From: Stromatinia cepivora | Lineage: Eukaryota > Ascomycota > Leotiomycetes > Helotiales > Sclerotiniaceae | Direction of reading: 5' to 3' | NCBI GenBank assembly: GCA_014898415.1 | Contig: RCTD01000010.1 | Coordinates: 1,488,001 to 1,552,000 of the forward strand | Length of the DNA stretch: 64,000 nt | Part shown: one piece after another, positions 25,001-25,706 of the stretch | Numbering within the stretch: the first letter of the stretch is position 1 | Layout: every line of letters starts with the position of its first letter | Translations under genes and position numbers: made by a program | The notes under the pieces: model-generated | Seen by the model: the letters and a program-made list of their open reading frames with translations, nothing else | Database searches by the model: none | What the model was told of the DNA's origin: nothing

Positions 25001-25193
25001 TGTAGCCAATATAAAAATCGATTTACCCCACCTACCAAAATTTTTCTCCAATATCCAAATTTGCAGATATTTTTCATGCTCCAAGAATGAATGAATACTA
25101 ATCCAATTATCAATCTAAAATTTCTTCATTTGCCTCTTATTACCTCCCAGCTCCCCCTGAAACCTAAAAATATGTCCTCAACATCCAAAGAAC
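22007..25193. other. Gene-poor stretch, 3.2 kb
   Basis: No gene can be supported. A minus frame at 22023-22301 (SSPSTHSSPSQYKSSLSKLP, LNYPTGAEMR*) has protein-like composition but no start codon. A plus frame at 24102-24314 (GMPEEFMTACKVYNDIDTKL) is similar. Either could be a relic exon. Confidence 0.4.
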
Positions 25194-25198
25194 AAAAA
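25194..25198 (-). terminator. Pol III T5 terminator of the initiator tRNA gene
   Basis: Five T residues on the minus strand, 14 nt past the discriminator base of the tRNA at 25213. Position and length fit RNA polymerase III termination. Confidence 0.6.
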
Positions 25199-25212
25199 GA
25201 ATGCTTGTGTCA

Positions 25213-25337
25213 TAGCAAGTCCCAGTTTCTACTGAATGTTAGTGAGATGCACGGAATGATGAATCTTGAGTGAATGCTTACCGATCTGGGGACCTCCGGG
25301 TTATGAGCCCGGCGCGCTTCCACTGCGCCAACTTGCT
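25213..25337 (-). tRNA. Initiator tRNA-Met (CAU) interrupted in the T-loop
   Basis: Outer parts 25282-25337 and 25213-25228 together form a 72-nt tRNA. The acceptor stem AGCAAGT/ACTTGCT has seven perfect pairs and discriminator A. The D-stem is GCGC/GCGC with loop AGTGGAA. The anticodon arm is CCGGG-CTCATAA-CCCGG, and the T-arm CCCAG-ATCGAAA-CTGGG. The A1:U72 pair, the GGG/CCC anticodon stem and AUCG in place of TpsiCG in the T-loop are hallmarks of eukaryotic initiator tRNAs. A 53-nt insert (25229-25281) sits between ATCG and AAA of the T-loop. The A-box (TGGCGCAGTGG) is intact; the B-box is split by the insert. Every stem is undamaged, so the gene is either functional with the insert removed or very recently interrupted. 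Confidence 0.9.
25229..25281 (-). other. Spliceosomal-type intron inside the tRNA T-loop
   Basis: 53 nt on the minus strand beginning GTAAGC, with CACTAACATT (ACTAAC branch-site consensus) about a dozen bases before the terminal CAGTAG. Length, donor, branch and acceptor match the spliceosomal introns of protein genes in this window (for example 50 nt in nar1 and 49 nt in the tubulin cofactor gene). Removing it exactly restores a seven-base T-loop. Canonical nuclear tRNA introns lie after position 37 and are removed by the tRNA endonuclease, so this position and sequence are both atypical. Confidence 0.8.
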
Positions 25338-25624
25338 TTTAACTGGAATAATTGTTCCAATTGGATGAGAGAGCGGCGTGAATTTCAATTCACATAGGGA
25401 TTTCACAAGACACGGAAAGATTATAAGGAGAAAAATGGATCGTGGGTTGGTTGGTGGTGGGGAACGAGATGCAGGAGCCCACAACACACAATTCATGAAA
25501 GTATATCACATCCTCAAAAGTCCAACAACCAAAAATATATGATTTATATCCCAAATTACACGAGGAAACGACCCAGATTTCCTTGCGGAACAAAAATATA
25601 TCAATTTCAAAACCAAAAAGATTC

Positions 25625-25634: not shown

Positions 25635-25706
25635 TGCAACAACGGCGAATCGAACGCCGACCTCCACCTTGGAAGGGTGGAATCCTAACCATTGGACTAT
25701 TGAAGC
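25635..25706 (-). tRNA. tRNA-Gly (UCC), acceptor stem with two mismatches
   Basis: D-stem GTCC/GGAT, anticodon arm CCACC-CTTCCAA-GGTGG (anticodon UCC) and T-arm CGGCG-TTCGATT-CGCCG are perfect or wobble-paired. The A-box (TAGTCCAATGG) and B-box (GTTCGATTC) are intact and a T5 terminator follows. The acceptor stem reads GCTTCAA against TTGTTGC: pairs 3-70 and 4-69 are T-T mismatches, where GCAACAA would pair fully. It may be a functional gene with a weak stem or a decaying copy. It lies about 300 bases from the initiator tRNA gene, in the same orientation. Confidence 0.8.

Follow-up and report, generated by a model that had tools for sequence, protein, structure and literature searches.

Within a window of 64,000 nt from the fungus Stromatinia cepivora (contig RCTD01000010.1, positions 1,488,001 to 1,552,000), the minus strand at 25337..25213 carries an initiator tRNA-Met gene whose T-loop is interrupted by an insert resembling an mRNA intron. 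The gene measures 72 nt once its exons are joined (discriminator A included). Exon 1 (56 nt, 25282..25337, on the minus strand like all parts of the gene given below) comprises the 5′ strand of the acceptor stem, the D arm, the anticodon arm with CAT, the variable loop, the 5′ strand of the T stem and the T-loop bases A54, T55, C56 and G57. Exon 2 (16 nt, 25213..25228) supplies T-loop bases A58-A60, the 3′ strands of the T stem and acceptor stem and the discriminator A73. The insert of 53 nt (GTAAGCATTCACTCAAGATTCATCATTCCGTGCATCTCACTAACATTCAGTAG, 25229..25281) lies between tRNA positions 57 and 58, and its assignment as an mRNA-type intron is based on its sequence, on trial joins at AG dinucleotides and on the conservation of its motifs compared with the rest. 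With the final AG of the insert taken as the acceptor, ARAGORN calls the window gene a 72-nt tRNA-Met(CAT), and its exons fold into a cloverleaf with a CAT anticodon, a GGG/CCC anticodon stem and an AUCG T-loop. The GGG/CCC stem is an initiator trait. The same has been described for AUC at positions 54-56 (PMC3978253; this and the other sources cited here by accession are represented by excerpts). The unspliced gene was overlooked by ARAGORN (bacterial settings) and reached 26.4 bits with the Rfam tRNA model, below the cut-off of 29. An earlier note, made from the letters of the window alone, had described a tRNA split in its T-loop by 53 nt that start with GTAAGC, carry ACTAAC and end in CAGTAG; the coordinates and the ARAGORN call of the joined gene bear out the split, and GTAAGC, CTAAC and CAGTAG are present in the sequence.

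The insert carries each of the signals of a U2-type GT-AG intron, and the same holds for three further copies of the gene found elsewhere in the genome. The 5′ splice site GTAAG (25277..25281, in the context ATCG/GTAAGC) and a terminal AG are present in 4/4 introns. The branch-point motif (25238..25242) reads CTAAC in three copies and CTGAC in one, and lies 10-12 nt from the intron end in all four; in the window copy, the branch A is at 25239, 10 nt before the 3′ splice site TAG (25229..25231). For comparison, we used four mRNA introns of the window, one in Nar1, which was placed with the help of the Botrytis homologue, and three in S-adenosylhomocysteinase, which were located from the reading frame and from conserved motifs. 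These four introns are 49-61 nt long and have CTAAC or CTAAT 11-18 nt before their end, and one of them, which starts with GTAAGCA and ends with CACTAACCTTGCAATAG, is similar to the tRNA intron. The tRNA introns resemble the four in length (53-58 nt) and in branch position. When each tRNA intron was shuffled 200,000 times, the combination of GTAAG, CTRAC at 8-15 nt from the end and AG arose 0, 1, 0 and 0 times. Moreover, only one acceptor per locus yields a tRNA. Among the 10 AG joins tried at the four loci, located 35-100 nt after the GT, four restored the tRNA, one at each locus, and ARAGORN called tRNA-Met in 4/4 copies when these were joined at the last AG. At the window locus, TAG was the sole acceptor among those tried that gave a tRNA call.

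Our searches covered the genome assembly of 55,666,819 bases in 48 contigs, for which completeness is not stated, and found four initiator tRNA genes, here termed C10 (the window copy), C5, C21 and C14. All four are interrupted at the identical site, by introns of 53, 57, 58 and 53 nt. A query of 245 nt, consisting of gene, insert and flanks, matched these four loci, and when the joined gene was used instead (71 nt), only its first 56 nt found matches, again at the four loci and without an uninterrupted copy. Allowing 2 mismatches at most, a pattern built on the anticodon arm matched the four genes exactly, together with two sites at 2 mismatches where ARAGORN finds no tRNA (6 hits for the reversed control), while a pattern for an uninterrupted stretch from anticodon to T-loop with 3 mismatches retrieved the four split genes and 2 sites judged by eye not to be tRNAs (4 hits for the reversed control). 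Furthermore, the 13-base pattern GGGYTCATAACCC occurs at 5 sites genome-wide, four of them being the split genes and the fifth an AT-rich stretch in which ARAGORN recognises no tRNA. The elongator tRNA-Met is distinct, with two genes that have introns near the anticodon. The count of initiator genes that the earlier note had proposed as a check therefore gives four genes, and the uninterrupted copies that the note had named as a refuting outcome did not appear in four genome searches. The interrupted gene is real, although it is not the single oddity that it seemed, since all initiator genes found are split. Because the same structure recurs at three further loci, chance or an assembly slip is an unlikely cause.

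The four copies combine invariant exons with strongly diverged introns. Exon 1 is identical at 56/56 and exon 2 at 16/16 positions, so that all 72/72 exon positions agree; the conservation alignment itself holds 71/72 exon columns, as two of its rows are one base short, and the 72nd base was confirmed to be A in all four copies. By contrast, pairs of introns differ at 16-20 of the 35 aligned positions outside the motifs, and 12 further columns are gapped. Among the columns of the splice motifs (GTAAG, CTRAC and AG), 11/12 are invariant compared with 7/35 elsewhere (Fisher p = 1.8e-5), and the twelfth shows the A/G change that CTRAC permits. The identity of the exons beside such introns is what selection on the sequence of the initiator tRNA-Met would leave behind. 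Together, the conservation of exons and motifs is the pattern of old copies, with selection apparently acting on both the tRNA and its splice sites; the alternative, concerted evolution limited to the exons, would need to skip the intron every time. The introns also retain a modest similarity in their cores, where pairwise scores were reached by 2 to 37 of 500 shuffles for the six pairs. In the 100 nt downstream, similarity is clear in three pairs (0, 0 and 2 of 300 shuffles) and weaker in the others (16, 26 and 63), and in the 100 nt upstream it is mostly not above shuffles (7 to 158 of 300). The similarity of cores and downstream flanks suggests a single origin, although it is not strong evidence by itself. 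The tandem acceptor CAGTAG is found in C10 and C5 and a single CAG in the other two, by which the copies fall into two pairs.

This pattern separates the three origins that the earlier note had left side by side, namely a tRNA matured by the spliceosome, a recent introner-like insertion and a fresh pseudogene. A recent insertion is contradicted by the divergence of the introns and by the search with the 245-nt query, which holds the insert and matched the four initiator loci only, with no near-identical copies elsewhere (the 53-nt insert was not used as a query of its own). A fresh pseudogene is likewise contradicted, given that the searches revealed no intact copy and that the exons agree at 72/72 positions, beside introns that differ at about half of their aligned positions outside the motifs. 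Maturation by the spliceosome is instead favoured by the kept motifs and by the absence of an intact copy. We therefore consider it very probable, judging from the sequences, that the four loci are functional initiator tRNA-Met genes with a fixed, ancestral spliceosomal intron of the U2-type, GT-AG class in the T-loop. From the same sequences we infer that splicing takes place, that the spliceosome performs it and which polymerase transcribes the genes.

In the path that we propose, RNA polymerase III (Pol III) would yield a short precursor terminating at a T-run downstream of the gene. The GUAAG would be bound by U1 and the CURAC branch point recognised, and the spliceosome would then join G57 to A58. 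The T-loop could close only after this joining, upon which the tRNA would be finished and exported. Translation initiation via the initiator tRNA would thereby depend on the spliceosome, and splicing factors would themselves require this tRNA. With somewhat less confidence than in the genes themselves, we think it probable that in a whole fungal lineage the only initiator tRNA arises from a Pol III precursor that is spliced by the spliceosome and in which the internal B box becomes whole only once the exons are joined. The lineage would probably extend beyond this Botrytis relative, because roughly half of the aligned positions outside the motifs differ among the four introns, and from this divergence we expect the gain of the intron to be old.

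Several observations weigh against this interpretation. The remnant of the B box in the window gene (GATCGGTAA, 25278..25286) matches 7/9 positions of the consensus GWTCRANNC, and the same score was obtained for all four initiator genes, compared with 9/9 in 62/62 other tRNA genes tested. The box is broken because A58 and C61 lie past the intron. The comparison set was chosen by tRNA models and is thus biased towards intact T-loops: the Rfam tRNA search gave at least 63 genes, of which ARAGORN recognised 62, and the remaining locus (L091) was left out of the counts of B boxes, TATA-like boxes and T-runs. As 63 is a lower bound, the absence of an isotype from this set carries no meaning. No substitute B box with a 9/9 match was found on the same strand within 400 nt from the gene start at the four loci, and a stricter 11-mer with 1 mismatch, searched 1 kb to either side, gave a single site, 738 nt upstream of C14 only. 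In addition, the window copy is without a TATA-like box near -50; its nearest one is at -88. Since the B box is broken and the window copy is without a TATA-like box near -50, transcription by Pol III cannot be taken for granted, and the window copy is the least certain case. A further difficulty lies in the acceptor. In C10 and C5, an upstream CAG (25232..25234 in the window copy, 3 nt before the TAG) rivals the correct TAG, and its use would enlarge the T-loop by three bases. The first AG of this CAGTAG ends 7 nt from the branch A and the second restores the tRNA; acceptor and branch are separated by 10-18 nt in the eight introns compared (four tRNA and four mRNA introns), so that the first AG is nearer than any of these. 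Finally, the counts from our genome searches may be lower bounds.

The broken B box also speaks for the best of the competing explanations, in which RNA polymerase II (Pol II) transcribes the genes and the transcript is spliced as usual before the ends of the tRNA are cut. Pol II transcripts are the normal substrates of the spliceosome. However, the flanks of the genes look otherwise. A T-run of the kind at which Pol III terminates follows the discriminator base in 4/4 copies, with T5 at 14 nt in C10 (25194..25198), T7 at 13 nt in C5, T7 at 11 nt in C21 and T5 at 15 nt in C14, whereas runs of the T≥5 type lie 5-25 nt ahead of only 3-9% of flank positions. Furthermore, a TATA-like box stands at -50 in C5 and C14, as it does between -65 and -35 in 35/62 of the other tRNA genes, and C21 has CATATG at -50. 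We regard transcription by Pol II as unlikely; it is a variant of the spliceosomal interpretation that changes the polymerase alone and leaves the main claim untouched. In fission yeast, tRNA genes depend on a TATA element, which the common box at -50 here resembles. Initiator genes of fission yeast can also be read from the promoter of an upstream tRNA-Ser gene. In the window, a tRNA-Gly(TCC) gene (25635-25706, minus strand) precedes the initiator gene by about 300 nt in the same orientation and has its own T-run 5 nt past its end; in the 8-10 kb covered for each of C5, C21 and C14, ARAGORN found no tRNA. The C5 copy (gene at 3947-4074 of L093) is enclosed by a 172-codon open frame running on the opposite strand; the open frames that hold C14 and C10 are on the strand of the gene and span 90 and 42 codons, respectively.

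The remaining explanations concern the way in which the insert is removed, or whether it needs to be removed at all. If the insert were a non-canonical intron cut by the tRNA splicing endonuclease (Sen/TSEN) and sealed by a ligase, as in Cyanidioschyzon merolae, it would have precedents in the T-arm introns with bulge-helix-bulge motifs of that alga (PMC9602550) and in nucleomorphs, where T-arm introns are removed by an unknown mechanism (PMC4090602). According to ARAGORN, many tRNA genes of this genome moreover carry introns near the anticodon. However, the minimum-energy folds of the four precursors, inspected by eye and not by a dedicated motif search, show no shared bulge-helix-bulge at the junctions, and the kept motifs GTAAG, CTRAC and AG are not signals known to be read by this endonuclease, which makes its involvement improbable. 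Slightly less probable still is an intact initiator gene in unassembled sequence, with the four split genes being dispensable or pseudogenes. The 48 contigs of unstated completeness leave room for it, and a 2014 review describes eukaryotic T-arm insertions as mostly affecting one of many synonymous genes and as supposed pseudogenes (PMC4090602). Against this stand the four genome searches without an intact copy; in addition, copies that are out of use are not expected to preserve splice motifs and 72/72 exon positions when the rest of the aligned intron has changed at about half of its positions. A miniature group I intron that splices itself, like those in the rRNA genes of Phialophora, where fungal introns of 56-81 nt include one active in vitro (PMC3160393), has hardly any probability here, since the last base of exon 1 is G in 4/4 copies instead of the U that pairs with G at a group I 5′ site, GT-AG ends and a branch motif are present in the insert, and Rfam reports no group I intron in 25100-25450 of the window copy at E values up to 5.

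Two proteins encoded in the window bear on its host. Nar1, a cytosolic iron-sulphur assembly protein, is 93% identical to its homologue in Botrytis fragariae, which points to a filamentous ascomycete near Botrytis, presumably of the family Sclerotiniaceae. SF3A2 is too conserved to place the host; among the matches listed, Xylogone ranked first at 92%, Clarireedia likewise reached 92%, and a B. cinerea record with gaps had 88%. Other tRNAs split in a similar way were sought with GGGTTCRGTAAG, a pattern that covers one T-stem sequence and one insertion point; it gave 10 sites (16 for the reversed control) and 31 GT-AG joins, none of which yielded a tRNA. A general initiator pattern was also run on viral contigs and genome contigs, where it matched 4 and 5 loci, none of them seen to be fungal. 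The T-loop is uninterrupted in 8 of these 9 loci, and the ninth (L059) has an insert that does not start with GTAAG. This locus, near 2710-2760 of a record titled as a Neomarinimicrobiota MAG, shows by eye a tRNA-Met-like T-loop interrupted after GATCGAG by about 40 nt that are repeat-like and not GT-AG. Another locus (L028, G000:C12:624580-624714) scores above the Rfam cut-off and was assigned by ARAGORN an anticodon CTA and a 64-nt intron; apart from itself, it has only short matches among the fetched tRNAs, and it represents either an amber-reading tRNA or a misplaced intron.

The splicing of tRNAs is classed as independent of the spliceosome in a 2026 review (PMC13149111). An essential tRNA that relies on the spliceosome would, if true, break this rule for nuclear tRNA splicing and add a third way of splicing nuclear tRNAs. 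It would also couple the start of translation and the capacity for splicing in a single essential loop, and thereby provide a natural control point at which the splicing load could set translation initiation. Moreover, the arrangement raises the question of how Pol III and TFIIIC cope with a split B box. Gene finders can miss such genes, as ARAGORN and Rfam at its cut-off both missed the window gene, and therefore a gene split in this way may go unnoticed in genomes that seem to be without an initiator tRNA.

Among known systems, the closest counterpart is the U6 small nuclear RNA gene of Schizosaccharomyces pombe, in which an mRNA-type intron within a small Pol III RNA is removed by splicing (PMC10484740). 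Both cases share an mRNA-type intron in a small RNA, which in U6 is made by Pol III and spliced, as we propose for the tRNA. However, U6 is itself a component of the spliceosome, with an intron that is thought to have arisen when reverse splicing took place close to the catalytic nucleotides; in our case, the intron resides in a tRNA and breaks the internal promoter. The best matches to U6 and the signal recognition particle (SRP) RNA in our genome run from end to end, over 107 and 282 nt, and both genes are thus unsplit. Spliceosomal introns have also been described in the rRNA of lichen ascomycetes, and budding yeast removes one of 57 bp that was put into its rDNA (PMC8527467). These introns are likewise short and located in a structural RNA, but they belong to a Pol I transcript and not to a tRNA. 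The examples of U6 and lichen rRNA demonstrate that the work of the spliceosome can extend to RNAs made by polymerases other than Pol II. Introns in the T arm or T-loop have been reported between positions 56/57 and 59/60 in archaea and 53/54 in C. merolae (PMC4090602, PMC9602550). The introns of archaea, C. merolae and nucleomorphs resemble ours in interrupting the T arm or T-loop, but they are linked to a bulge-helix-bulge and endonuclease or to unknown means, and the excerpts of these sources describe no GT-AG intron with a branch point. Canonical nuclear tRNA introns, which follow position 37, are present in this genome as well, including in the two elongator tRNA-Met genes, and differ in both site and enzyme. 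Among the open-access papers searched, we met no description of a spliceosomal intron within a tRNA; subscription papers and preprints were outside this scope, and an earlier report is possible. Overall, ectopic introns of the mRNA type are a known kind of element in structural RNAs, while one that sits in a tRNA, splits every copy found of this essential tRNA and runs through its internal promoter appears, from the sources searched, to be new.
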